NCBI GenBank assembly: GCA_001600355.1
Contig: BCJU01000001.1
Location: forward strand, 2,191,178-2,255,177
Direction of reading: 5' to 3'
DNA from: Meira nashicola
Lineage: Eukaryota; Basidiomycota; Exobasidiomycetes; Exobasidiales; Brachybasidiaceae
DNA length: 64,000 bases
Under the pieces are notes generated by a model. It was not told where the DNA came from and did no database searches. It saw only the letters and a program-made list of their open reading frames with translations. Both the position numbers and the translations under genes were made by a program. Positions 34,703 to 62,333 of this stretch are shown here, in pieces (position 1 is the first letter of the stretch; every line of letters starts with the position of its first letter).

Positions 34703-35737
34703 TTTGATTTTAGTTTTGGATCAGGTAGGGGTAATGTAGAAAAGAAAGAATTGTAAAAATGTGTTCTTCTTATAATTATATCATTTGAATTCTTCTCGCT
34801 AAAGATTCCTTCCCCTTGGTCGATTCAACTTCTCTCCGTTTTGTTCCCCTCCAAATTAGAACATGCACTTGATCAGTGTTTTGACCCATAAGCTCTGAGC
34901 GCACGGGCACTTGTTTCGATCGACAGAGGAACTTTATCAAAACGCGCCGGCGCTACGTATGTACACACACCCAGACCCTAAGAATTTAAGGAAATACACT
35001 ACGTCAAACTTTTGGGACAATTAAGTGCCTAAATCTGAATTTCATTTGCATGCATGCAATCGTCGTTTTGCATACAAATCAAATTTCTCTGGGCGTAAAA
35101 GCAGATCGGCGTTCTTTACACGCGAACGGGTCTTGACTTTTGAGTTTTTACCGAAAGGCAGGACTTATCGATAAACAAGTGGTGAGCTGTGCATGGTGTT
35201 CACAACCAAATTGTTCACCATCACGAATGAATATGCAAACGAGGAGCTGCTAATATTTCATGACTCTAATCCTCCCTTTGCGTCAACAGACATTTAATGA
35301 TCATTTATTTTTCAATCATCTTTCTTTTCAACAATGACGTGGCTTAAATCAACGATTAACATGACGCCCACCTAGACACTGCCACCACTGTACTTTTGAC
35401 TCTCTACGCCTTGGATTTTGTTTTATTTGCTTTCAAAGACACAGCTTGGCAACATTTGCATTTGCTCACCCATCCGGGGCAACATAATATGCATGTGTAA
35501 TGCTTTTGAGGTCGAATCATCTCGGACGCCATGGAGTGTGAATTTGCGTACCAGTACGCAAGCAATGCGCATACAGGCGACAAAATTGCGATCAAATGGT
35601 GGCTGTGAACTAATTGATACTTAAGATGTGATTTTTGCCACATTTGCATCTTTGTTACTTATCCTCTTTTCTCTTTCATCCTCATAGCAGGTTCTGATTG
35701 ATAGACAAACGTTCGTACTACTCTTCGTGCAGGCACG
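34703..35737. promoter_or_regulatory. Long intergenic region upstream of the secreted-repeat cluster
   Basis: 1,035 bases between the HAD phosphatase start and the first cluster gene. It has a perfect 14-base palindrome TTGCATGCATGCAA at 35046-35059 and a CCGGGGC box at 35474-35480 that recurs upstream of the other two cluster genes. No gene of its own is supported. Confidence 0.45.
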
Positions 35738-38700
35738 ATGAGTCGAGTCAAAAGTTCTCCATTTTCAGGCCAGGTGCCAAACGTTCTTATGGCTTTTTTA
35801 TTGTTTCTGAGCATTGTCTCTTGTGCAACGCTCAGTCGACGCGATCAACACATTTTTGAGCTGGCTCAAGTTGATAGCAATCGTCAAATCTCGACTTCCG
35901 CTTCCGATCCTACAGCTCAATTCTTGGGAGCATTTTTAGGGAATGAAGCTGCCGATGAAGGATCTTGGAGGAACACAGAATTGGCAGAACCATCTACAAA
36001 CGGACCAATGGTTTATGCAGCTAGTAAACAAGGTTCCAATCTCGGCTCAACCAGTGTCACAAAAATCGTTACCATTGAAGAGCAAGGGGATGAACCTGAT
36101 ATCGTTCATGTCCAACGATCTTGGTTGGACCGTCATCCAAAATCTCGCAATTTGATCGCAACTGGGATTATGGGTTCTGCAATCGCATATGCTCTCACTT
36201 CTGTTCGTAAAGCTTCCCATATGGATCCCGTTCCCGAATCTGTGCAAAATGCATTGGCCATGGTCAATCCAGTAGCAAAACCCACTAGAAATGTCAATCA
36301 AAGTAACAATATTAAGCGTGAATCAGATCTTGATTCACCGTCTTTTGTCAAAAGAGCTCATGGCCGTTGGCGTGCAGGCGCTTTGGGTATGGCTCTCGGT
36401 GGATTTGGTATGTACATCCATTCGAATAAATTGGGCCCTGATATCAAAGAAGCCCTTTGGCCGTCTCGCAATTCCGACAACGGTAATGGCAAGCGAAGCA
36501 TTACGGAAATCATATTTCTTCGTGACGATGAGGAAGAAGATGAGCATAGATATTTACAGAAAAGAGAAGGAGGAAAGAATCTTGCATATCCTGTATATGC
36601 ATCTGCAGCTGCTGTAGGTCTTTATGGTTTGCACAAGTACAGCAACGGAGGCTTCCAAACTCAAGGACAGACTACAATGCAAAAGCGATCAGTTATTCCT
36701 GAAGAAGGTGAAAAGGAAGAGATCAAGCTACAACGCCGTGGCAGAGGATGGAAGGATGCAAACACACTGAATGCTCGCACTTTCGTTTCTCCCTCTCATA
36801 AACAGGTCAAGGTATACTGGAAGGATGATAGTGTCGATCGCTTTGACCGTCAGACGAACAACCCAAATGGTGATAGCGCAGGCGATGAACAAGGCAATTG
36901 GAGACCGGTTCAAAGCTTTGGAGCAAGAGCATTTGTACTTAAAGATCGTGGACAAGTGAAGATCATTTGGAAATCTGGCAATGTTACCTTTTACAATCGC
37001 AATTCGGGCGGTAATGGAGGTCCAATTCCATCCAGCAACACTAACAACAATAACAACAAGACTTCTGATGACTTTGATGATCATCATAACGGTGCCTTTG
37101 CTAGTATACGTATGCGTGGTCATCAAGGTTGTTCTTCTTTTATTTGGCTCATTGTGCTTGCTTTGACTGTCTTTTTGACTCTTGGCAGTGTTTCTGCTGA
37201 AGGTGTTGAAGCTTTTGACGGTCTTCCTCAATCTCAAAGTCTGGAAAAGAGACAATTCATATTTCGTAGGGCAAATTCTACTCCAGCTTGGTTAGGCGTT
37301 CATGATCTCAATGCAGAATCAAAGATTTCACCTTCTCATACACTCGTAAAAGTTATTTGGCATTCTGGCAATGTTACAACTTACAATCGAGCTGATGGTC
37401 AAAGTCCACCTGTTTTGCCAACAATGGTTCTTCCAGATGATGAGCCAGTGTTGTGGAGAACGGTTGGAAGTTTCAATGCAAAAACCCAACTTTCAACAGA
37501 TCATGAACAATTGCGTGTACTTTGGAATTCTGGAAATATTACCAATTTTACGAAATTACCACCTAATCCTCCTCCCGCACCTGCGCCTGCACCCGCCTCT
37601 CCTTCTCCTCCTCCTGCACAACAAGCGTCCAATCCGGTACAAAATCGTAGTCAGATCAACAATGGAGCCCCTTTACAAAAACCCAACAACACAAACAACG
37701 ACTTTGATTCAAATCAATCCAACAATGCAACGATTTCGAAGCTGCGTAGCAAAGCAGGCGGGAGTGTTGGTTTTGCAGGCTTACTTCTTTTTTGGTGTGT
37801 ATTGTTTCTCTTCCCTGGTGATGTTTTGACGGATGAAAGAACAGGAGATAGAATCAATTCTGCTGATCTTGCTAAGCGTTCAAACGTTCTTTTAGCCCAA
37901 ACGTCAACGGACAGCATGGCTGTAATCGAACGGTCGAAATCACAAGCTGGTGAAGAAGAAGGTATTGCTTTAGTACGACGTGGTCCTTACAAGGGCTGGA
38001 CACCATTTTCCGCCATACCTGCAAAATCTTGGATTTCACCCAGACATGATCAACTCAAGATGATACGTCTAGGTGAAGATGGACCAGAATTCTTCATTCG
38101 TGAACAAGATGCAAGAGGTACTCCACTTCCACCTAATAATCAATGGCAACGATTGCGTGATATCAATGCAAAAGCCAGACTTTCACCAGATGAGAATAGG
38201 GTTGCAGTCAGGTGGAATAGTGGCTCGATAACCGAATACATAAGAAGGGAAACACTGAGAAAACGTTCTTTGCCCGGAGAGACATCTACATCCACACATC
38301 TGCATCGTTATCATCGTCGTCATGTTGCGGCAGCGGATCATGATCATGGAACACACGAGCATACTGCCAAAGATTTTCAACTCGGTCGTATTTCTCCTCC
38401 AAGCCATCATGCTAGCTACGATCAAAGAACTAATAATGGAAGCCACGATCAAAAACAGAATCATGGCAAGCATCATAAGAGTTCAGCCAATCATCATAAG
38501 AATTCAACCAATCATAAGAATTCTGCTAGTAGTATTTTGCACAGAAGAGGCTTTGGGATGGAGCTTTATACATTTTGGATTGTTGTCTTGTTTACCTTTT
38601 CGGTATTGTTCTTTGCAAGCGTTTCAAATGCCAGTGGAGAAGAAATTGATCTAGCTTCTAGTTCTATTGCCAAAAGATCAGTCACACAACTTTCTAGTGT

Positions 38701-41551
38701 GTCAACTGTTTCTACTCCTTCTCTGACTGCCAACGTACCATTGCATTTCAATTCAGTTCAAGTCAATTCGATTCCGCATTCGACAATTGACTCACTTCAA
38801 GGATACAAGAGCAATACAGCACGTAAAGCACTACGTGATAGTCACCCTCAAGAACAATCTCAAGTTGAACCAACTTCACGAAAATCTCGCTTAAGACAGA
38901 AGAGAGGACCAGGAAAGTCTAAAATGATGAAAAGAGAGGTGGGTGAAAAAGAAAAAGTGAATGAAAAACCGTTACTGAAAAGATCCATTGCGACCGTATC
39001 CAGCTCAGCTCCTTCTAATGCTCCAATAAGCTCGACTCCTTTTGCAAATTCACAATCATCTACTGCGTTTACACAAGACAATTGGCCGGATGGCAATCCA
39101 GGTAAACCTTCAAGACCGAGAAATTCTGTTGCCATTCATGATGAATTTGTTCTTCAATATGGAAGAAAAGATGGTCTCGAAGATCCTCGTCGAGACCTTA
39201 AAGGAGGCGGTGGTGCAAGAGGTGGTGGCTCGAGGGGTACAGGCGCGAGAGGAGGTGTCCGCGGAGGTGGTGGGTACGGAGGTGGTAGAAGAGGTGGTAG
39301 AGGATCAAAGTCAGATAGTGCAGGTAGCAATACCAAAAACGCCGCTTTAATGGCAGGTGGAGCAGCCGCTGGAACCGCAATAGCGCTGTATGAAGGAGGT
39401 AAAGTCGAAGATAATGCTCGGCCATCAAAGAAGAATGTTGGAAGTGCTGAATCCAGATCGAAGAAGTCAAGACTTAGAAAACAAATGATGTCGACACGAA
39501 GCTTGGAAGATGAAGAAAGTTCTTTGCTTTTCACTAAGCGAGCACTTCAGACCGTATTCAAAGGGGATGAGAGGACCAATGAATCAGTGCTCATCAAGCG
39601 ATCCGTTGCACAAGCTCCCAGCACATTCGCTCCGTCTAGCGCTCCAATCAATTCGTCGCCTTTTGCAAATTCACAATCATCTACTGCATTTACACAAGAC
39701 AATTGGCCGGACGGAAATCCAGGCAAACCCTCAAGACCGAGAAATTCTGTTGCCGTTCATGATGAATTCGTTCGTCAGTATGGGTCAAAAGAAGGAACAG
39801 ACAATATGCATCGAGAGCTCCGAGGAAGCAGTGGAGGTGGTGGTGGGCATAGTGGTAGCGGGCATGGAAGCGGCACTGGAAGTTCTAGTACAAGATCACC
39901 ACCTGGTTATTGCCGCACAAGCACAAGCACAAATACTCGAAGAAGGCACGGAGATTGTGATGACTCAAATGCAGGAAAGAGTAAAACAAAAAGTGCAGCT
40001 CTGATAGCAGCCGGAGCAGCTGCTGGAACAGCAATGGCCTTGTATCATGATGGTGGCGGTGGTGGAGAAGAAGACGCATCAGGGTCAAAGAAGAAAAGTT
40101 CATCTGCTAATACCAAATCAAGAAAGTCAAGGTTGAGAAAACAAATGTTGTCAGAAAGAAGCAAGCAAAGCGAAGATCATCCTATGCTTCTTGTTAAAAG
40201 ATCGTTTCAATCCTCAATCTTTGCTAAAGGTAACAAATCTTTTCTGAAACGCTCAGTAGTTTCAAATACAAGTCACGGAGTACCGATATCTCAATCGATT
40301 TTGCCTTCTGTGACAAGCAGATCTTCTTTATCCAGTCTTCCCAAAAATCTTGCTGATCAACACTCAGATCAATTGAACCAGTATGAATCTATCGCAAAGG
40401 AATATCCTGTTTCACGTAAAATTTTCGATGAAAAGAAAGCATCTGTACGTGATAGCCAACTTCCGCATGGTACAATAAACAATCGAAAAATGCTCAGAAC
40501 AAATGATCAACAAGCAGCTTCCAAATCCGGTAAGAGTACAGCAGGCGCAGTCTCTGCAGGGCTTGCTTTAACTGCTTATGGGGGAGCAGCAGTCAGTCAA
40601 GCAATGACCGAAAGACTGATAGCAAAGAGCAGAAAAGGAGGAACAAGGGGACGACGTATCGCACGACTTGCGACGGTCAATGAACATCAATCTTTGGATA
40701 AGCGTTCGGCACCAGATTTATCTTCTATCATCTTGAAACGCTCTATAATGCCTTATACAGCTCAAACAATACCCGTATCCGAACCAAACCTGCCTTCTGT
40801 GGCTACCAGCTCAACTTCTTCAGGTCTCCCAAGAAGTCTTGCTGATCATCATGTAGATCAAGTGAACCAGTATGAATCTATCGCAAAGAAATATCCCGTT
40901 TCACGTGAAATGTTCGATAGAAAGAAAGCATCGGTACGTGATAGTCAACTTCCAACTCCTTCAAATTCTGACAAAGTAAGATCGTCTGGTCAGGTAGTAA
41001 GAGACAAAAAGTCACATGCAATAACTACAGCTTTGGTAGCGACGGGCGCTGCAGGTGTTGGAGCTGCTGAGGTGCACAGAAGGATGAGAAAAGCTGTGGC
41101 TTTTGAGAAGAAAGGAGGAGTAAAAAAAGTACAATTCGCAGGAATTGATAAGAGATCAATCTTTAGCAAGCGTACTTATGAAGTGAAAGAATTTGTAGAA
41201 AATGAAAGTTCGCGATTGCTACCACGTATCAATTCACCAACAGGCAAAATGGAGAAAGCTCTTTTGATAGGAAGTAGTGGATTACTAGCAGCAGGTAGTT
41301 TAGTTGCAACAAAAGCAGTTTTGACACCTCCAGATCGAATTCGTGAGAAGCGTAATTTAGATTCAATAGAATCTACCACAAGTGACATTTTAATAGAACG
41401 TAGTCCAATCTCTGCTGGTGCAAAAAATATTATGATCGGTCTTGGATCTGCAGCAGCGGCAGGAGGATTGACGTTGCATCTTTTGAATAAAGATGCGATC
41501 AAGAAAGATAAAGGATATGGCGTTGGCAAAATTCCTGATCAAATTTGGTGA
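35738..41551 (+). CDS. Giant secreted repeat precursor with many dibasic (KR) sites; cluster gene A
   Basis: A single open frame of 1,937 residues. It opens with a signal-peptide-like segment (about residues 13-30, NVLMAFLLFLSIVSCA) followed by a dibasic site. There are 21 Lys-Arg pairs, 12 of them KRS, mostly after an aliphatic or polar residue, as expected for Kex2 sites. Three repeat families are present: six copies of a WxxV...NA...SP.H..VKV.W.SGNVT..NR unit (about 338-837), two copies of a WPDGNPGKPSRPRNSVA unit (1081-1142 and 1287-1349), and two copies of a LADxHxDQxNQYESIAK unit (1502-1576 and 1668-1738). Gly/Ala-rich hydrophobic stretches recur near 1202, 1420, 1602, 1762, 1841 and 1893, often next to a basic SRLRK motif. 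Three further hydrophobic segments (466-487, 674-698, 941-963) look like internal signal peptides. I recognise no family; secreted, Kex2-processed repeat protein is the inference. Hidden in-frame introns cannot be excluded. Confidence 0.75.
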   Translation: MSRVKSSPFSGQVPNVLMAFLLFLSIVSCATLSRRDQHIFELAQVDSNRQISTSASDPTAQFLGAFLGNEAADEGSWRNTELAEPSTNGPMVYAASKQGSNLGSTSVTKIVTIEEQGDEPDIVHVQRSWLDRHPKSRNLIATGIMGSAIAYALTSVRKASHMDPVPESVQNALAMVNPVAKPTRNVNQSNNIKRESDLDSPSFVKRAHGRWRAGALGMALGGFGMYIHSNKLGPDIKEALWPSRNSDNGNGKRSITEIIFLRDDEEEDEHRYLQKREGGKNLAYPVYASAAAVGLYGLHKYSNGGFQTQGQTTMQKRSVIPEEGEKEEIKLQRRGRGWKDANTLNARTFVSPSHKQVKVYWKDDSVDRFDRQTNNPNGDSAGDEQGNWRPVQSFGARAFVLKDRGQVKIIWKSGNVTFYNRNSGGNGGPIPSSNTNNNNNKTSDDFDDHHNGAFASIRMRGHQGCSSFIWLIVLALTVFLTLGSVSAEGVEAFDGLPQSQSLEKRQFIFRRANSTPAWLGVHDLNAESKISPSHTLVKVIWHSGNVTTYNRADGQSPPVLPTMVLPDDEPVLWRTVGSFNAKTQLSTDHEQLRVLWNSGNITNFTKLPPNPPPAPAPAPASPSPPPAQQASNPVQNRSQINNGAPLQKPNNTNNDFDSNQSNNATISKLRSKAGGSVGFAGLLLFWCVLFLFPGDVLTDERTGDRINSADLAKRSNVLLAQTSTDSMAVIERSKSQAGEEEGIALVRRGPYKGWTPFSAIPAKSWISPRHDQLKMIRLGEDGPEFFIREQDARGTPLPPNNQWQRLRDINAKARLSPDENRVAVRWNSGSITEYIRRETLRKRSLPGETSTSTHLHRYHRRHVAAADHDHGTHEHTAKDFQLGRISPPSHHASYDQRTNNGSHDQKQNHGKHHKSSANHHKNSTNHKNSASSILHRRGFGMELYTFWIVVLFTFSVLFFASVSNASGEEIDLASSSIAKRSVTQLSSVSTVSTPSLTANVPLHFNSVQVNSIPHSTIDSLQGYKSNTARKALRDSHPQEQSQVEPTSRKSRLRQKRGPGKSKMMKREVGEKEKVNEKPLLKRSIATVSSSAPSNAPISSTPFANSQSSTAFTQDNWPDGNPGKPSRPRNSVAIHDEFVLQYGRKDGLEDPRRDLKGGGGARGGGSRGTGARGGVRGGGGYGGGRRGGRGSKSDSAGSNTKNAALMAGGAAAGTAIALYEGGKVEDNARPSKKNVGSAESRSKKSRLRKQMMSTRSLEDEESSLLFTKRALQTVFKGDERTNESVLIKRSVAQAPSTFAPSSAPINSSPFANSQSSTAFTQDNWPDGNPGKPSRPRNSVAVHDEFVRQYGSKEGTDNMHRELRGSSGGGGGHSGSGHGSGTGSSSTRSPPGYCRTSTSTNTRRRHGDCDDSNAGKSKTKSAALIAAGAAAGTAMALYHDGGGGGEEDASGSKKKSSSANTKSRKSRLRKQMLSERSKQSEDHPMLLVKRSFQSSIFAKGNKSFLKRSVVSNTSHGVPISQSILPSVTSRSSLSSLPKNLADQHSDQLNQYESIAKEYPVSRKIFDEKKASVRDSQLPHGTINNRKMLRTNDQQAASKSGKSTAGAVSAGLALTAYGGAAVSQAMTERLIAKSRKGGTRGRRIARLATVNEHQSLDKRSAPDLSSIILKRSIMPYTAQTIPVSEPNLPSVATSSTSSGLPRSLADHHVDQVNQYESIAKKYPVSREMFDRKKASVRDSQLPTPSNSDKVRSSGQVVRDKKSHAITTALVATGAAGVGAAEVHRRMRKAVAFEKKGGVKKVQFAGIDKRSIFSKRTYEVKEFVENESSRLLPRINSPTGKMEKALLIGSSGLLAAGSLVATKAVLTPPDRIREKRNLDSIESTTSDILIERSPISAGAKNIMIGLGSAAAAGGLTLHLLNKDAIKKDKGYGVGKIPDQIW
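36749..38248 (+). repeat. Six copies of the SGNVT-type repeat in cluster gene A
   Basis: About 34-residue units at 36749-36850, 36899-37000, 37289-37390, 37454-37555, 37997-38101 and 38144-38248. They occur in three pairs, each pair following a KR or RR site and most preceded by a hydrophobic signal-like segment. Core features: an aromatic start (W), NA at position about 10, (S)P.H, VKV.W and SGN(V/I)T with an N-glycosylation sequon. The fifth copy is the most degenerate. Confidence 0.8.
38978..39784 (+). repeat. Duplicated KRS...WPDGNPGKPSRPRNSVA unit in cluster gene A
   Basis: Two copies, 38978-39163 and 39596-39784. Over the aligned 113-base core (39040-39152 against 39661-39773) I count 7 differences, of which only one (Ile/Val) changes the protein. 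Each copy is followed by a Gly-rich stretch, a Gly/Ala hydrophobic segment and SRLRKQM. Confidence 0.85.
40241..40951 (+). repeat. Duplicated LADxHxDQxNQYESIAK unit in cluster gene A
   Basis: Two copies, 40241-40465 and 40739-40951. Each begins with KRS, then a Ser-rich stretch, LP.(N/S)LAD.H.DQ.NQYESIAK.YPVSR..FD.KKASVRDSQLP (given here as a pattern), then a basic linker and a Gly/Ala hydrophobic segment. Confidence 0.8.
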
Positions 41552-41973
41552 ATAGATCTCCTTTATCTTCAGTATTATTGATCTTTTTGTATATACTATA
41601 ACTTAACTCATCATTTCTATACCATGTCACCCTCAACAATGCTTTCTAGTAACCTTCAGTGACTTCGCTAGATTGCGTGGCATAATGTTTCCCATTTCTA
41701 GCTAAGGAATGGTGTCTTGTGATCATCGCATTGTGATATGAATGCACAGCAAAGTATTTATCTCACAATAATATTCAGGATTGCGTACCACAATTCGGGG
41801 CGAAAAGGTACATTATCACGTAAGACTGCTGACTTGCACGAACAATACAACTCAACATACGGCCAAGTGTAGATAACAACATGAAAGCAACATTGAGGCT
41901 GTGATTGTTAGGATATACATATAAATCTCAATCATCTGCATTATAAATCGTCATACTCTTCTGAAATATCATC
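41552..41973. promoter_or_regulatory. Cluster gene B upstream region
   Basis: 422 bases. It holds a TCGGGGC box at 41795-41801, the 12-base TGAGGCTGTGAT element ending at 41905 and a TATAAAT at 41920-41926, 48 bases before the ATG. No gene is seen. Confidence 0.5.
41894..41926 (+). promoter_or_regulatory. Shared TGAGGCTGTGAT element and TATA box, cluster gene B
   Basis: TGAGGCTGTGAT at 41894-41905 is identical to a 12-mer upstream of cluster gene C. TATAAAT follows at 41920-41926. The conserved order element-TATA-ATG in two paralogues suggests a common control site. Confidence 0.5.
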
Positions 41974-42564
41974 ATGAAAATAGTAAAGCCAGCAGATATG
42001 TCTTTTTTGCTCATCATCACTTCTTTGATGATTAGTATTTCTTTTCCCATTTCTGCTACTGAAATCACAATTTCCAAAAGTGTTGATCAAGTTACTATAA
42101 GAGATATTTGGGCTCTTTCATTTCCTGCAAAAGATGATTTGGGCGGTTTAAAGTTAATCAAGAAAAGATCAATCGTACAAGGAAGTGGATCAGCTATTCC
42201 TCCTTCTTCAGTTTCTGTCTCTCATGCTGTCGTTAGTTATAAGCCTCCTACGATCCCAACTGAACCTATTTATCCACTTTATCCGGCAACACAAACACCT
42301 TCACAAGCACCTGCACCTCAAGCAGGAAATGAAGCAGGATTATATCAAGATAGTAAAAGACGCATGCCTAATAAACCAATTCCAAAATCAAAGTCAGGAG
42401 CATCAAGTTCTAATGCTGGTAGAGCAGCAACTGTTGCTGGAGTGGCAGCTGGAGCAACAGCTCTAGCATTACATCAAGGTCCTGTTGAAAAAAATAAAAA
42501 GAGCAAAAATAATAAAGGTGGCGCTCGAGGACGTAAAATCCAAAAGAGTCTATTAAAACAATAA
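41974..42564 (+). CDS. Small secreted KR-site precursor; cluster gene B
   Basis: A 196-residue precursor. The N-terminus has a signal peptide (about residues 9-28, MSFLLIITSLMISISFPISA), then a pro-region to KKRS at about 67-70. The processed part begins SIVQGSGSAIPPSSVSVSHA, which aligns with the first unit of gene C (MVQAGVGNNVPSSSGSISHA). A Pro-rich stretch (TQTPSQAPAPQ), a second dibasic site (DSKRRMPNKPIPK, matching RMPDEPLP in gene C), a Gly/Ala hydrophobic stretch (ATVAGVAAGATALALHQG, like those of gene A) and a very basic tail follow. It therefore joins features of A and C and is a paralogue of both. Single exon; own TATA box. Confidence 0.75.
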   Translation: MKIVKPADMSFLLIITSLMISISFPISATEITISKSVDQVTIRDIWALSFPAKDDLGGLKLIKKRSIVQGSGSAIPPSSVSVSHAVVSYKPPTIPTEPIYPLYPATQTPSQAPAPQAGNEAGLYQDSKRRMPNKPIPKSKSGASSSNAGRAATVAGVAAGATALALHQGPVEKNKKSKNNKGGARGRKIQKSLLKQ

Positions 42565-43380
42565 GGCAATAACTCTTATACGATCACTTCAAACTTAAAA
42601 ATGTCAACTGATGAAACATAACTATCCAATCATCATGACAATTTGAGTCTTTGTCAATCATATTTTTGTGTATAATTCATGTTTTTACTTTGTCATATAG
42701 CCTTACAGTAAATATTCAGCTTCAATACATATGACTTTTATTCTTCAAACCGTGACTGCCAAAACATTAAGCCTAAATTGTGTCCTAGACATTGATAATG
42801 AGAATAATACTATATGCAAACGCAATCAACAAATAATAAGGCAGTGTTTAAAGCAATGAACGTTTTGAATAGTCGCAGATGGAGCTTAATGCTTTAGCAA
42901 AGTGTGAAAGAACTCCATACGCCATAACTTGTATTTTAGGATGAATGTTGTGTACGCAATAATATTGGCTAAATATTTGTACATGGTGAAATCAGATTGG
43001 CTCTTCCGTACGTAATAACATTTATTTCTTTTCACTTTGTGTAAATGCGAAATAATAATTCCAGCAAAACAATACTTTCTGGCGAAATAAAAGTGCAATT
43101 TTTCATCCCTCACTACTTTCAAAACCCACTTCCCGGGGCAAATGATATTGTGCATCACATAATCATGCTTACGTTGATTATTGCAAACCAGTACAAGTTG
43201 AACGCAAACGGGTCAATACGATAACAAAATCAAAAGTGAAAAAGTCATACGCCATCACGATGTACATGTAATCCATTGTTTGCAATGTATCACCCCAAAA
43301 AATGAGGCTGTGATCATAAAGGTATAAAGAGTGACTATTTCTCACTTTCATAATCACTTTCCCTTCATCCTTTTCGCTTC
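42565..43380. promoter_or_regulatory. Cluster gene C upstream region
   Basis: 816 bases, AT-rich. It holds CCCGGGGC at 43132-43139, a CCCCAAAAAA run just before the 12-base shared element, and TATAAAG at 43323-43329, 52 bases before the ATG. No gene is supported. Confidence 0.5.
43303..43329 (+). promoter_or_regulatory. Shared TGAGGCTGTGAT element and TATA box, cluster gene C
   Basis: TGAGGCTGTGAT at 43303-43314 is identical to the 12-mer upstream of gene B, followed by TATAAAG at 43323-43329. Confidence 0.5.
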
Positions 43381-44667
43381 ATGGCAGAAAAGGCACCTTT
43401 AATTATCATGACTCCCTTAAAGTCTCATTCCAAACCTAATTTAGCGCTTGCAATCACAACGACCGTGGTGTTGATGTTGATCAATTTATCCTTGGCGATT
43501 GCAAACAACCTTGAAAGTTATCATTCAGAATCAATGTTTAAACGTGCAATGGTTCAAGCTGGCGTTGGCAATAATGTACCTTCTTCATCTGGTTCTATCT
43601 CACATGCTGCTACTGTTGGTCATTCTACTTTCGATAATGCTTCAGCAGGTGGTATGCTTAGTAAATGGCCCAATGGACAAGATGGCAAACCGAAAAACCT
43701 TCAAGAACATCATGCAAATCAAAGAGCACTCTATGAACGTCCACCTGGCGGATTACCAACCGAACCTTTTCCTTATAATCCACATCCTTTTACCGCAACC
43801 ACACCTTCACCTGCTCCTTCACCTGGCCCATCTGGCAATCCTAAGAAGCAAGGTAGGAATTTATTACGATACACAGATGAAGGTCAACCAAAACCATTGA
43901 AATCACCTCCAGCATCAGGACCAACAGGATCACGAGCTCCTTCTTCAAAATCTTTAGTGCCTTCTCCAGCGCCGGCTCCATCGCCTGAACGTGGTATAGG
44001 ACGAATGCCCGATGAACCTCTTCCAGGAAAACCTCCTCCAATTGGAGCAAAAGGCAGACAATTGTCAGGATCCGGAAAAAGTCGTTTACGTCAAAAGAAA
44101 GGTCCTATCACCAAACGTTCACTGGTTCCAGGTGGTGGAAATGCGCTTAGTGGTGGAGGTAGTGGTGGTGTGAATTTCTCCGGTACGAATGCTCATTCAA
44201 CTTCTGAAACTTCACAATCTGGACAGTTTGGTCGTTGGCCTGATGGTAATGTCGGTAGGCCTCTGCATCCAAAAGAAAGGCAACTGTTTTACCCTTACGT
44301 AGAGCCGCCCGGGTCTCCATACCATATTAGCATGGGACCAGACCCGAAGGTTCACTTTCACACCGGGTCTAATTCTCCCTCTCCTTCACCTGCGCCATCA
44401 AGCAATCCGAAGAAGCAAGGAAGAAAGTTATTAAGATACACGGATGAAGGTCAACCAAAACCATTAAAATCACCACCTGCTTCAGGACCGACTGGATCAA
44501 GAGGCTCATCTTCATCTTTATCGCCAGGACCAGCACCAGCGCCAGGCCCTACGCATGGAAGACCACGAATTCCCGATGAACCTTTTCCTCCTCCATCAAG
44601 TGAAGGATCCGGTAGAAAATTGAGCGAAAGTTCTCGTGGAAAAAATCGTTTGCGTAACAAGCACTGA
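43381..44667 (+). CDS. Secreted Pro-rich two-unit KR-site precursor; cluster gene C
   Basis: A 428-residue precursor with a membrane or signal segment at about residues 20-41 (NLALAITTTVVLMLINLSLA) and two tandem units. Unit 1 starts at FKRAMVQ (about 53) and unit 2 at TKRSLVPGG (about 241). Each has a Gly/Ser-rich start, a W-P-(D/N)-G motif (KWPNGQDGKP, RWPDGNVGRP), a Pro-rich stretch with repeated SPSPAP, the near-identical 33-residue NPKKQGR...SGPTGSR segment, an (R)(M/I)PDEP(L/F)P motif and a basic end (GKSRLRQKKGP, GKNRLRNKH). Single exon. WPDGN links it to gene A, and the RMP...P and SVSHA-like motifs link it to gene B. Function unknown; secreted or cell-wall material or processed peptides are inferences. 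Confidence 0.78.
   Translation: MAEKAPLIIMTPLKSHSKPNLALAITTTVVLMLINLSLAIANNLESYHSESMFKRAMVQAGVGNNVPSSSGSISHAATVGHSTFDNASAGGMLSKWPNGQDGKPKNLQEHHANQRALYERPPGGLPTEPFPYNPHPFTATTPSPAPSPGPSGNPKKQGRNLLRYTDEGQPKPLKSPPASGPTGSRAPSSKSLVPSPAPAPSPERGIGRMPDEPLPGKPPPIGAKGRQLSGSGKSRLRQKKGPITKRSLVPGGGNALSGGGSGGVNFSGTNAHSTSETSQSGQFGRWPDGNVGRPLHPKERQLFYPYVEPPGSPYHISMGPDPKVHFHTGSNSPSPSPAPSSNPKKQGRKLLRYTDEGQPKPLKSPPASGPTGSRGSSSSLSPGPAPAPGPTHGRPRIPDEPFPPPSSEGSGRKLSESSRGKNRLRNKH
43837..44502 (+). repeat. Duplicated NPKKQGR...GPTGSR segment in cluster gene C
   Basis: Two 99-base copies (43837-43935 and 44404-44502) encode the same 33 residues except one Asn/Lys change. I count 13 base differences, 12 of them synonymous. 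Confidence 0.88.
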
Positions 44668-52290: not shown

Positions 52291-53952
52291 TCAATGAGAG
52301 TTTTCAGAAGAGGTAATTGACCCAGCAGATTCACTGAAATGACTACCTTCCAAAACAAGCGTAGGCATGATAAGTTGGTGTACATTTTCTTGGTCTTCAT
52401 GTGTATGCTGGCTTTCCATTGGTGAAGAGATGTAACCATCCATGCTCACATTACTGGCTACACCAAAACCTGCACGAAATTCACCCACGTCAAAAAATCC
52501 TTCAGAAGATGCAGGAGGACTAGACAGATATGCAGTACTTGATCTTCCTTCAGAAGAATGTTGACTTGATCCAGGTTTAGAACTTGGTGGATTACGATAG
52601 CGAACGATACTGTTGCGCATTAAAAATTTAACGTACCGCTCGCTGATTCGTGCAGCTTCGAGCATCCCCCTCACTTGATCAGGTTCCTGATCGGGAAAAT
52701 CGATTCTCAAGACCACGTTGCGCATGTCAGCGGAATTATCTCGATCAATGCACTCTTGCAATCGAACGAACAAGGCAGAATTCCAACTTGCTGGACGGAA
52801 TGTTCTAAGTCTTTCGTCTACGTCGAATGCTCGTTCAATCTGGCAAATCAATCCAGTCCGATGCCTTTGGAAATTCTCATACAAGCGATCAATAGCTTGT
52901 GTAAAGGCTCTATCAGATAATAGTCTGTGACTAGGATCGAAAGGCACAGAATCATTGCCATCACAGGAATCAGGATATCCATCGTCGAATAGCAAGCGGT
53001 GTTGGTCCGGATTGAGTGGAATGTTGAGCATTGTAGTGCAGTACGGAATATATTCTTCTTCTTTGAAGTAATCACTACCACTTTCAGATTCTTCATCCAA
53101 TACAGAAGTTGACTCCGACGATGGACCAGCAGTAACATTGACAGCAGATGACGTTAATGACTCAGGCTCTACTTCGCTGATCTCGTTGAAACTCTTCTCT
53201 TCAATCTTGCGAATAATGAAGAAACGTCCATGCGTGACTTCTGCTTGCCAGTTGTTTACTCCTACCGGGAAGACATTGCGCTTTTGGTTCATATAAGGAG
53301 AACGACGAGTGCTCATTGGCATATTGCCAGATCTGGTAGCTCCTGCTTTTCTACGCATTTTTTGACGTTCTTTTTCCAAATCATCAGCAGCTGCACGAAG
53401 AGCGAGAGGAGCATTGGACATAATTTCAAAGCCCATTCCGCCAGAATGAAAACCTCTAGAAAGTTGTAAACCTACATCAGTGGTCGATCGAGTGTAGACT
53501 GCGTTGACATATGGGTAGGCTGAAGGTCGCTTCAAGCTCCGTGAGAATGTGTGGCGTGATTGATTGAATCCTGATCCTCCTTTTAATTCTCTTACTAATT
53601 GGCGAGCTTGTTTAGCGCCAGGCAGATCAGATCCTTGTCGAATACCCCGAAAGACATTTGTTAGGGCTTCCTTAAATGCATCTTGTGCAGCTATTTCAGC
53701 GTTTATATAGGCATCAAGAAGCCTGTTTGTATTGGTGGCGTCACCTGATCGTTTGTACGTTTCTCTTCCGACAGCTCTACGGCCGGCTTGTCTGAGAGCA
53801 ATGCTTTGTCTGAGAGCTTGCAAGTGAGCTTTATAAGTAGACGATGCGAGTGAGCTGCCACCCACACCTTGTTTCGCTGCTCCACTACGAAGCAAGGTAT
53901 TCTTTAACTGACCCATGAGGCCAGCAAGAAACCCTCCTCCCGTAGCAGCCAT
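52291..53952 (-). CDS. Unrecognised 553-residue protein
   Basis: Single exon, good ATG context, full-length frame. The N-terminal 170 residues are basic and Ala/Arg/Gln-rich with few acids (GGFLAGLMGQLKNTLLRSGA, HLQALRQSIALRQAGRRAVG), compatible with mitochondrial targeting. Further segments (RGFHSGGMGFEIMSNAPLAL, DDLEKERQKMRRKAG) precede an acidic Ser/Glu stretch (about 250-300). The C-terminal part (about 310-470) is a globular-looking region with YIPYCTTMLNIPLNPD, FTQAIDRLYENFQRHR, FRPASWNSALFVRLQECID and RISERYVKFLMRN, followed by a disordered tail. No motif gives a function. It lies divergent to SET1. Confidence 0.7.
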   Translation of the reverse strand: MAATGGGFLAGLMGQLKNTLLRSGAAKQGVGGSSLASSTYKAHLQALRQSIALRQAGRRAVGRETYKRSGDATNTNRLLDAYINAEIAAQDAFKEALTNVFRGIRQGSDLPGAKQARQLVRELKGGSGFNQSRHTFSRSLKRPSAYPYVNAVYTRSTTDVGLQLSRGFHSGGMGFEIMSNAPLALRAAADDLEKERQKMRRKAGATRSGNMPMSTRRSPYMNQKRNVFPVGVNNWQAEVTHGRFFIIRKIEEKSFNEISEVEPESLTSSAVNVTAGPSSESTSVLDEESESGSDYFKEEEYIPYCTTMLNIPLNPDQHRLLFDDGYPDSCDGNDSVPFDPSHRLLSDRAFTQAIDRLYENFQRHRTGLICQIERAFDVDERLRTFRPASWNSALFVRLQECIDRDNSADMRNVVLRIDFPDQEPDQVRGMLEAARISERYVKFLMRNSIVRYRNPPSSKPGSSQHSSEGRSSTAYLSSPPASSEGFFDVGEFRAGFGVASNVSMDGYISSPMESQHTHEDQENVHQLIMPTLVLEGSHFSESAGSITSSENSH

Positions 53953-58871: not shown

Positions 58872-61800
58872 ATGTCGTCATCATCAAAAGGAAAAGGTAA
58901 TGAGACTTCAAAGGCAAATTTAGGAGAAAAGGGTAAACAGAATTCGAATCAGACTGAGAATAACAGCAAAGATGGTTTAGACGTAAATCAAACTGAACGA
59001 AGAAGAACATCATTTGCACGATCACCATCAGGCTTATCATTATCTAGACCTAAATCACTTTTAGCGCCTTCTAGACCATCGCCATTAACGCCATCAGTAA
59101 GCTCTGCGAAAACGGATAATAATCAACCACCGCATTTGCTCAGCGCAAGTCCATCTAGCAGATCAATAATTGATCGTAATCATGCAAGTGGAATTACAGC
59201 TAGTACCAGTAATGCTTCGTTAAATAATCGTGAAGGAATAATTGGTGATAATGGTGGAGGAGCAAGATCGGTTAGTGATGGTGGCGCTTTGAGTAGATTG
59301 AGAAGGGTAGCCAGTAATGCAAGCTTAGCAAGTTCGATTAAACGATTTGAGCCTAGTATCAAAGCGCCATCTATAATGGAAGACGATAAAGGGTCTGCTT
59401 CTGTTGAGACATCTACTAATGTTGACAAAAAGAATGCTGAACAATCGAGTGTTGTTAGTGCTAAAACACCTTCCACAGAAGTAGAAAATACATCTAAACC
59501 CAACGAGGCAACGGAAGAAGATACAATAATGGCTGAAGAAGGCAAAAAGCGAGCATTGGATGGAAATAGTGCAAATGATGCACAAAAGAATCAAAAAAGG
59601 AGAACCTGGTTTGGTTTTATAGGCGGAAGTGAAGATGTTCAAAGCGAACAGTCTATTCCAACTACCACTGCAGCAGAACAACAAAATGATTCAGTTAAGG
59701 CAGACAATAGTCTCGATGTCCCTCCTACTAGAACGGTCACGCATACTTCAGATGATCAAGACGGTCAAAGAACGATTCGTGGTCCACCCTCTACTCTGAA
59801 TGCAGAAGATAATCAGGGCACAATAAAGTCCTGGATCCCATGGAGAAATCAAGAAGATACCGCAAATGATAATGCTGTCGATTCTGATCAAGCAATTCCG
59901 GATCAATCAACCTCATACACGGATAGTGTGAGAAGGTATATTGGCTGGTCATCTACGACAGCTAACGACAACGCTGCTCACCCAACATCCACCAATAGTT
60001 GGGCATGGTCGACATGGAACCCATATGGAACTAATTCTCAAGTAAATGCTGCCAATGATGTTAAGACACAAGAAGTAGCAACCGCACAAGCCCAACCAAC
60101 TACATCATCAACGGTAAATGCAAGAGCTATGGAATTGAAACCAAATGTTAATAAAAAACAAACAGAATCCACAGCATCGACAGCTTCACCATCTCAAAGC
60201 TCTTTTATCTATCGATGGGTGCCAACTTGGTCTCGTGGAACAGCACCTTCACAACAGCCAGCAGAAGATGATAATCAAGATGATGATGATACTCCAGCAA
60301 GAGAGCCAACAACACCAGCTGAACAATATAAAGCTGAAGCGTTGGCATTATTGGATGCTAAAGGTGCAGTGTTAAATCCTGCTACACGATCAACATGGAT
60401 AAATTATTTCAGTAGTCGTTCTGCGGCATCTCAACCGAAAATACCAACAAAGAATTTGGATGAGCCTGAGGTGATGCGAATCGAAAGTGGTACTCCATCT
60501 TCTAGTGCATCGCCTAAATTACCGCCTAATAGCGGAAAGAGTACACCACTCACGCCATCGATTCATTCAAAAAGTGACGTCCCTCAAAAATCTGTTGATT
60601 CATCTCTAAACGGAAAGAGGGTGGATCTCGATAAGCCGAAACCTGATCCTGCACCTGCAAATAGTCGTCCAGCAACGCCTTTGACGAACAACAAGGACGT
60701 TAAAGCTCAGCAAAATTCGCACATCAAACGTTTGAGTTCATCAAATCCAAAAAATCCAAAGCCGACTAAGCCTACCGCACCAAACCTTCTCTTGCCATCT
60801 TTTGATGACACTTTTTCCGCCGCACCAAGATCTATAACGCCAAAAAAGGGAGTATGGGAAAAGACAATTTCCTTGCTGTTCAATTCATCAGCACAAGATG
60901 TAAAAGGTCGAAGGAGTTCGATGTTAAGTCCAGCCTCACAGCAAGATTTGGAATCCAAACCTGGTGATGCACAAGCAAGACTACCAAGATTATGGTCAAC
61001 GATGGGCGAAAAAGAAAGAGCGGCTTCTAAAGGATGCAAAGATGTTCGTAAAGTAACGATTATTGGTATTCATGGCTGGTTTAGTCAAGGTCCTATTCGA
61101 AATTTGTTTGGTGAGCCTACTGGTACTTCCACAAAGTTTGCAAGTATGATGACGAATGCTGTACGTAAGCATTTTGCAGAAGCTGGTTATGAATTGCAAG
61201 ACGAACAAATAACAATCATTGCATTAGAAGCGGACGGATTGGTGTCTGATAGAGTTGATAAATCTTTTTCATCTCTGCTCAGTAATCCAAAATGGGTTAA
61301 AGATCTTCTTGATTCGGATGCAATTTTTGTTGCTGCACATTCTCAAGGCTCAATCGTTGCAACTCATCTCTTAGCACGTTTAGTGGAACAACGTCATTTA
61401 AACCTTCGAAGATCTCGAATCGCTCTTTTGTGTATGTGCGGAATTCATAATGGACCATTTGCACATTTAAAAGGATCGATAACGAGCTATTATATGAACA
61501 CCTTTGAAACGCCTGCAGCTAAAGAATTATTCGAATTTCAAAACGGTCATTCTCCTGTTTCTAGATTATATGCCGCTTCTTTGCGTATCATTCTTGCTGC
61601 TGGTATCAAATTGGTTTATATTGCTTCTTTGGATGATCAAGTCGTTCCGCTTTATTCTGCTTTGCACACAGCAGCTTCTCATCCAAGCATCCTTCGTGGA
61701 ATATTTTGCGATGGTGCAGCTTTTCCAAGAGTTGATTTCTTGACGAATTTATTATCCTTTTGCGTTAATGTTCGAAATGCAGGTATGGGTGATCATCATT

Positions 61801-62333
61801 TGGCAACCTTGCTCTCTTCTTCTGTTGCTGGAAGTTTGTACGGTGGATTAGGACATTCTTTGGTGTATGATGAGCCACAAGTGTACAATTTGGCGGCACG
61901 ATACTGCCTTGAAGTTACTTCTCCTGCAATTTATCCTACAGCAAGGCCAGGTCAACAAATTACATCTGGCGTTCACTCTTCAATCATTCAAAATGCAAAT
62001 CTGCCTCAAGGTATTCCTCCTTTAGATTTAGATGATGAATTCACTATTGCACGAAATCAAAAATGGAATAGTAATCCTTATGCATTACCTTGGAGCTTAC
62101 GTGGTTTATTCGAAGATGAAAGAGTTCGACATTATTTTTCACCACAAATCGATAAGCTCGTTCGTGATTATTTGGATTGGCAACCTACAACAAAGACTTT
62201 GAAAGACGTTCAATTCAGATTAGAGCCAATGCGTTTCATCGCAACAAGCAACAAAAATTTCAAATCCGATGAATCAGCTCCATCTCGTACGCTTTCGGGA
62301 AGCACTGCTACGCCTTCTAATTCGAAGTTGTGA
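58872..62333 (+). CDS. Alpha/beta hydrolase, YML020W-like
   Basis: An 1,153-residue protein. Residues 1-700 are low-complexity, Ser/Asn/Thr-rich, with a few Trp-rich tracts (KSWIPWRNQED, WAWSTWNPYG, YRWVPTWSRG). The catalytic region (about 715-1130) starts KVTIIGIHGWFSQGPIRNLF, has a nucleophile elbow IFVAAHSQGSIVATHLL (Ser about 823), and continues with ALLCMCGIHNGPFAHLKG, KLVYIASLDDQVVPLYSAL and YGGLGHSLVYDE (likely His). The layout matches yeast YML020W and its fungal relatives, whose substrate is not established. Single exon. Confidence 0.82.
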   Translation: MSSSSKGKGNETSKANLGEKGKQNSNQTENNSKDGLDVNQTERRRTSFARSPSGLSLSRPKSLLAPSRPSPLTPSVSSAKTDNNQPPHLLSASPSSRSIIDRNHASGITASTSNASLNNREGIIGDNGGGARSVSDGGALSRLRRVASNASLASSIKRFEPSIKAPSIMEDDKGSASVETSTNVDKKNAEQSSVVSAKTPSTEVENTSKPNEATEEDTIMAEEGKKRALDGNSANDAQKNQKRRTWFGFIGGSEDVQSEQSIPTTTAAEQQNDSVKADNSLDVPPTRTVTHTSDDQDGQRTIRGPPSTLNAEDNQGTIKSWIPWRNQEDTANDNAVDSDQAIPDQSTSYTDSVRRYIGWSSTTANDNAAHPTSTNSWAWSTWNPYGTNSQVNAANDVKTQEVATAQAQPTTSSTVNARAMELKPNVNKKQTESTASTASPSQSSFIYRWVPTWSRGTAPSQQPAEDDNQDDDDTPAREPTTPAEQYKAEALALLDAKGAVLNPATRSTWINYFSSRSAASQPKIPTKNLDEPEVMRIESGTPSSSASPKLPPNSGKSTPLTPSIHSKSDVPQKSVDSSLNGKRVDLDKPKPDPAPANSRPATPLTNNKDVKAQQNSHIKRLSSSNPKNPKPTKPTAPNLLLPSFDDTFSAAPRSITPKKGVWEKTISLLFNSSAQDVKGRRSSMLSPASQQDLESKPGDAQARLPRLWSTMGEKERAASKGCKDVRKVTIIGIHGWFSQGPIRNLFGEPTGTSTKFASMMTNAVRKHFAEAGYELQDEQITIIALEADGLVSDRVDKSFSSLLSNPKWVKDLLDSDAIFVAAHSQGSIVATHLLARLVEQRHLNLRRSRIALLCMCGIHNGPFAHLKGSITSYYMNTFETPAAKELFEFQNGHSPVSRLYAASLRIILAAGIKLVYIASLDDQVVPLYSALHTAASHPSILRGIFCDGAAFPRVDFLTNLLSFCVNVRNAGMGDHHLATLLSSSVAGSLYGGLGHSLVYDEPQVYNLAARYCLEVTSPAIYPTARPGQQITSGVHSSIIQNANLPQGIPPLDLDDEFTIARNQKWNSNPYALPWSLRGLFEDERVRHYFSPQIDKLVRDYLDWQPTTKTLKDVQFRLEPMRFIATSNKNFKSDESAPSRTLSGSTATPSNSKL

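Follow-up and report, generated by a model that had tools for sequence, protein, structure and literature searches.

Viral polyproteins that use internal signal sequences obtain several secretory products from one reading frame; their later units begin with an internal hydrophobic signal, usually preceded by a stop-transfer helix. Among fungi, the closest described systems are the smut repellents and other KEPs. A KEP is defined in PMC7329392 by at least three repeats, each of at least 8 aa and none longer than 100 aa, that lie between Kex2 sites and score above 0.6, and the KEP pipeline described in PMC6339444 drops membrane-located proteins by TMHMM. Rep1 of Ustilago maydis, in the description given in PMC4617103, is a 652-aa protein with twelve amphipathic repeats of 34–55 aa. 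Amyloid-like surface fibrils are a further criterion for a repellent. The first-pass annotation of a 64,000-nucleotide stretch of DNA from the yeast-like fungus Meira nashicola (hereafter, the window) had proposed a cluster of three secreted precursor genes built in this manner. The three ORFs are present, all on the + strand, and encode proteins of 1,937 (A), 196 (B) and 428 aa (C); the likeness to smut repellents and KEPs holds only loosely. The explanation of A that we favour, and to which we give about an even chance, is a secretory polyprotein, restricted to its lineage and processed by Kex2, with internal signal sequences and a presumed topology and product function.

Like the KEPs of PMC6339444 and PMC7329392, A has the make-up of a secreted precursor with many KR sites in Kex2 context and modules between them. 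Unlike in KEPs, these modules are mostly 130–200 aa long, at most two of them are alike (~60%), and internal signal-like segments are present. When KR-only fragments were compared by pairwise alignment, a test that differs from the KEP authors' program, the only pairs at 0.60 were modules beta1/beta2 of A and the two halves of C, which exceed 100 aa and occur in two copies; no three fragments of at most 100 aa were alike at 60%. With Rep1, as described in PMC4617103, A shares the plan of a smut-lineage precursor divided by KR into pieces, among them small hydrophobic or basic ones. The differences, taken from the same description, are that A has only two small pieces (47 and 41 aa), that these do not form Rep1-type tandem repeats of 34–55 aa (they are not alike at a score of at least 45), and that A contains predicted beta domains. 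The parallel with viral polyproteins lies in the several secretory products per frame and the internal hydrophobic signals; unlike in the viral case, no stop-transfer helix is seen before the internal signals of A. A would work like a Kex2-processed precursor, yet it lies outside the published KEP repeat definition and the Rep1 layout. Our literature searches found nothing on fungal polyproteins with internal signal peptides or on internal signal peptides together with Kex2, nothing on multiple signal peptides arising by gene fusion in fungal secreted proteins, and nothing on Exobasidiales secreted proteins or genome or on FA14DRAFT. Meira and Exobasid are absent from the main texts of PMC7329392 and PMC6339444, whose supplementary tables may list these proteins.

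Table 1. Features of the locus, in window coordinates (aa numbers refer to A)
Feature	Position	Strand	Remarks
GGCTGTGA	35601..35608	+	137 bp 5' of the ATG of A; weak, putative regulatory element
Gene A	35738..41551	+	1,937-aa ORF, four-unit precursor; full-length homologues P0006 and P0007, colinear alignment
N-terminal signal-like segment (unit 1), aa 1-33	35738..35836	+	hydropathy 2.05; net N flank +2
Most conserved block, aa 118-317	36089..36688	+	three Gly/Ala-rich segments; sub-block identity 83-91%
Repeat pair 1 (provisional 'WSG' repeat), aa 333-425	36734..37012	+	matches pair 2, 1.2e-10
Internal signal-like segment 2 with KR, aa 453-505	37094..37252	+	hydrophobic core 467-485
Repeat pair 2, aa 512-610	37271..37567	+	AlphaFold2 model, mean pLDDT 82, pTM 0.72
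Internal signal-like segment 3 with KR, aa 669-714	37742..37879	+	core 679-697
Repeat pair 3, aa 747-842	37976..38263	+	matches pair 2, 8.5e-5
Internal signal-like segment 4 with KR, aa 936-980	38543..38677	+	core 945-963
Module alpha, aa 981-1056	38678..38905	+	RLR tail
Module beta1, aa 1083-1268	38984..39541	+	WPDG, Gly-rich stretch, Gly/Ala segment, RLR tail
Module beta2, aa 1289-1488	39602..40201	+	missing in homologue P0007
Module gamma1, aa 1506-1656	40253..40705	+	48% identical to gamma2 over 127 columns
Module gamma2, aa 1669-1806	40742..41155	+	homologues align a WPNG module at this position
C-terminal pieces delta and epsilon, aa 1813-1937	41174..41548	+	Gly/Ala segment in each; identity 66-77%
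TGAGGCTGTGAT then TATAAA, before B	41894..41905	+	one of two genome places
Gene B	41974..42564	+	196 aa; related to P0003 (3.6e-16) and A beta1 (4.3e-8)
TGAGGCTGTGAT then TATAAA, before C	43303..43314	+	other of two genome places
Gene C	43381..44667	+	428 aa; two modules, 60% identical over 164 columns; homologues P0002-P0004

Searches of the 17.9 Mb genome (20 contigs) with A, B, C and parts of A placed all convincing paralogous matches at this locus; two further places matching B (E 0.07 and 0.26) were weak and were taken as chance. The surrounding genes are ordinary fungal ones by Pfam (SLX1-like, HAD phosphatase and DUF676 esterase-like). Cyclic KEP-derived peptides are marked by a nearby DUF3328 gene; DUF3328 is absent from the Pfam matches of 23 window ORFs (22 of the 24 listed, plus B), a scan that spliced or shorter genes fall outside. 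Two other long ORFs of the window, at 58872-62333 (1,153 aa) and 52291-53952 (553 aa), have no Pfam match at E<=0.001. Upstream of the cluster genes, TGAGGCTGTGAT-N-TATAAA has two exact places in the genome, compared with none for the reversed element and none for the control. For its shortened core form, GGCTGTGA, the raw counts in the window are five on the + strand and zero on the opposite strand. With up to two mismatches, TGAGGCTGTGAT is not enriched in the window (8 against 6.4 expected; 31 of 100 shuffles reach 8), and only the two exact copies matter. From TGAGGCTGTGAT and GGCTGTGA we infer that the genes may be regulated in common.

A protein of the same kind is on record as one long chain from two other sources. 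P0006 of Meira miltonrushii ('uncharacterized protein FA14DRAFT_153377') has 1,876 aa and is 60% identical over the full length, and the second full-length homologue, P0007, has 1,642 aa; both are colinear with A except at beta2 and at gamma2, with which a different WPNG module aligns in both. P0007 and the C homologue P0002 both come with 3 contigs, of which the longest has 152,939 bases; A and C may thus be neighbours there as well. When the first 1,086 residues of the three A homologues served as a profile query, nothing beyond these came up. Each of three homologue searches scored only ~7,980 candidates, those sharing most words, so absence beyond Meira-like sources is a limited statement and distant relatives may be missed.

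The KR dipeptides of A are in clear excess (21 against 9.1 expected from composition); the excess is not clear in B (2 against 0.7) or C (2 against 1.6). Kex2 prefers an aliphatic P4 residue, according to PMC8528282. At 17 of the 21 KR sites in A, P4 is L/I/V/M/F (background 0.21, p=7.2e-9), which is the site context also used as a KEP criterion, and 12 of the 21 have Ser at P1'. Other dibasic pairs in A carry the P4 signature less often (RR 6/13, KK 2/11, RK 2/13), and the P4/P1' context is specific to KR rather than common to dibasic pairs in general. The signature recurs in the homologues (16/22 and 10/18 sites). Sixteen of A's 21 KR dipeptides are kept as KR in both homologues, and three more in the single homologue having the module; the residues of KR pairs are conserved at 32 of 34 positions, compared with 118 of 175 for other K/R (p=8e-4). 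The sole P_proprotein match of the genome lies in a 940-aa open frame, fitting a single kexin. The P4 signature, the conservation of the sites and this lone kexin-type match bear out the first-pass view of secreted precursors with Kex2-type KR sites, and hydropathy agrees with its N-terminal signal-like segment in each of A, B and C.

A consists of four units in one frame, of which units 2–4 each begin with an internal hydrophobic segment. In unit 1, the N-terminal signal-like segment is followed by a long pro-part, which holds three conserved Gly/Ala-rich segments, and then by repeat pair 1. Units 2 and 3 run from an internal signal-like segment through a short acidic piece and KR to a repeat pair. 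Unit 4 has the same beginning (internal signal-like segment, acidic piece, KR) and continues with modules alpha, beta1, beta2, gamma1, gamma2, delta and epsilon; it resembles B and C. The internal signal-like segments, and the six ~38-aa repeats in the first half of A, had been overlooked in the first reading. Two of the three Gly/Ala segments within aa 118–317 sit in pieces of 47 and 41 aa bounded by KR (36356-36496 and 36566-36688). These pieces rank among the best conserved in A (83-91%) and are promising candidates for peptides released from the precursor. An own-genome search found no second copy of the aa 118–317 block.

The repeat follows the pattern W...A...S.........V.W.SG.(I/V)T.Y.R over ~38 aa, and its six copies form three pairs, one in each of units 1–3. 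A whole-genome search with pair 2 retrieved pairs 1 and 3 and nothing else. Pair 2 is predicted by AlphaFold2 to be a small beta domain. For the repeat member reported in full, no Pfam family rises above its cut-off; UnbV_ASPIC (PF07593) matches five of nine repeat-pair sequences (best E 4.7e-4), covering 22 residues of member 1, which scores 20.1 bits against a gathering cut-off of 23.4. The PDB yielded no good match by sequence or by fold, and several of the weak structural neighbours in the fold search are beta-propeller blades. As far as Pfam and PDB searches show, the repeat is an undescribed beta module, and the initial impression that the cluster matches no characterised family stands on all three counts (Pfam, PDB by sequence, PDB by fold). 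It is a speculation that the three pairs might come together in one structure, such as a propeller to which they contribute blades.

The idea of a single module common to all three genes fared less well: B lacks WP(D/N)G and RLR, and the fragment comparison gave no direct hit between A and C of the window at E<=0.05. WP(D/N)G occurs twice in A and also in C, while RMP is found in B and C. The Gly/Ala segment and basic tail of B recur in A (4.3e-8 by fragment comparison; 3.7e-4, to beta1, in the genome-wide search), and the match of B to P0003 is to the first module of that protein. C is linked to A only via the WPNG module of A's homologues (3.2e-11 against milA, 1.9e-10 against lgnA). A control with 20 shuffles (58 fragments x 58 queries) gave three matches at E<=1, the best at 3.3e-7, so fragment matches weaker than ~1e-7 are not safe. 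Tails of the form [SNC]RLR, a relaxation of a stricter pattern, occur three times in A, twice in C (none of 1000 shuffles reaches either count) and not in B; C and its homologues P0002–P0004 terminate at, or a few residues from, an RLR tail. Modules beta1 and beta2 are 60% identical (3.9e-52). They also share residues that differ in M. miltonrushii, with WPDG twice here (38984-40201) against WHDG and WQDG in that species, a hint that the modules may have undergone gene conversion.

The central question is the topology of A. Its three internal cores have a mean hydropathy of 2.1–2.3, and a KR begins 16–19 residues past each. At all nine internal segments (three per homologue, in three homologues), the N flank carries a charge of +1 to +3 and the C flank one of -2 to -5, which is the arrangement of a signal peptide; in each of the three proteins, VSA stands ahead of the cut-site position in segment 2. 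Together with Kex2-type sites on both sides of the segments, the flank charges and VSA suggest that every unit is lumenal. A hydrophobic segment reached by an already lumenal chain normally stops transfer, and simple alternation would leave units 2 and 4 of A in the cytosol. Neither hydropathy nor a rough insertion score reveals, between segments 2 and 3 or 3 and 4, another strongly hydrophobic stretch that would return the chain. This conflict between lumenal-type features and standard translocation rules is the scientific interest of the locus.

A might instead be a multi-spanning membrane protein with ordinary, alternating transmembrane helices, cut only at its lumenal KR sites. We regard this as a serious but rather doubtful alternative. 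Alternation is the textbook default, and the strength of the three cores and a favourable rough insertion score (with our own weighting) agree with it. It would, however, have to accommodate flank charges of the same orientation at all nine internal segments and the same type of repeat pair on both sides of the membrane. Past the last internal segment, moreover, 11 of 13 KR sites carry the P4 signature (p=1.7e-6), as strongly as earlier in the chain, which is unexpected if that part stayed cytosolic. The N-glycosylation sequons at aa 545 and 600 of pair 2 are kept in all three homologues and also argue for the lumen, though they lie within a motif common to the repeats.

Alternatively, the long frame might give several products, through internal starts or separate transcripts, each an ordinary preproprotein like B and C. 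Each unit is indeed laid out like a free gene, and a Met stands directly before segments 2 and 4 (within 15 residues) in the window and in M. miltonrushii. In that range, segment 3 lacks a Met in all three homologues, as do all internal segments of P0007, which makes separate starts unlikely; conservation at the protein level continues across the joints, and third-position G+C there is like that of the remaining gene. We consider this reading improbable. StopGo (2A-like) separation was considered and rejected: NPGP is absent from A.

Returning to the polyprotein, B and C would be simple preproproteins, each with a signal peptide, a short pro-piece, KR and one or two modules, and A would be four such precursors fused in frame, three of them carrying a repeat pair and the fourth B/C-like KR-bounded modules. 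Each fused precursor would have retained its signal-peptide-like segment. The sequence itself shows the anatomy, its conservation and the Kex2-type sites; working internal signals, actual cutting, fusion and, least certainly, a surface role are proposals. At the joints of A, a stretch like the basic C-terminal tail of a precursor runs directly into what resembles the signal peptide, pro-piece and KR of another. In-frame fusion of tandem preproprotein genes would be expected to produce such joints, though sequence comparison alone is no proof of it. Comparison of the internal segments with the signal peptides of A, B and C was unremarkable in 9 of 9 pairs (at least 145 of 500 block shuffles reach the score), and descent from those signal peptides is not supported by sequence; it rests on position and charge. 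Among themselves, the internal segments gave scores reached by 120, 39 and 20 of 500 shuffles. The internal segments would act again as signal sequences, with the N end in and the C end in the lumen, and so bring all units into the lumen, where signal peptidase and Kex2 would free small beta domains and Gly/Ala-rich basic peptides. A pattern of one hydrophobic segment per released piece holds only in part (10 of 14 A fragments of at least 40 aa) and is often matched by shuffles. The specific proposal of a cellular, non-viral polyprotein whose translocation restarts several times, and whose four precursors are then split by signal peptidase and Kex2, strikes us as bold and on balance unlikely.

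The freed pieces may remain at the cell surface or in the wall, which is our leading guess for their role, at low certainty. Meira species are known from leaves and mites. These habitats, the lineage restriction and the turnover of modules between relatives would also suit secreted effector-like or antagonistic proteins directed against plant, mite or microbe rather than surface material. This reading appears the least probable to us: conservation in A peaks in the N-terminal Gly/Ala pieces, and nothing links the locus to any host.

If the internal segments work as signals, A would be a natural example of translocation being re-initiated repeatedly in one secreted chain and would show a tandem array of secreted-protein genes turning into a polyprotein. 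Should they be transmembrane helices, Kex2-type sites would be maintained on what is supposedly the wrong side of the membrane. The three strong internal hydrophobic cores suggest that a TMHMM filter would drop A; on either reading, a KEP screen that drops membrane-located proteins, as described in PMC6339444, probably misses such precursors.
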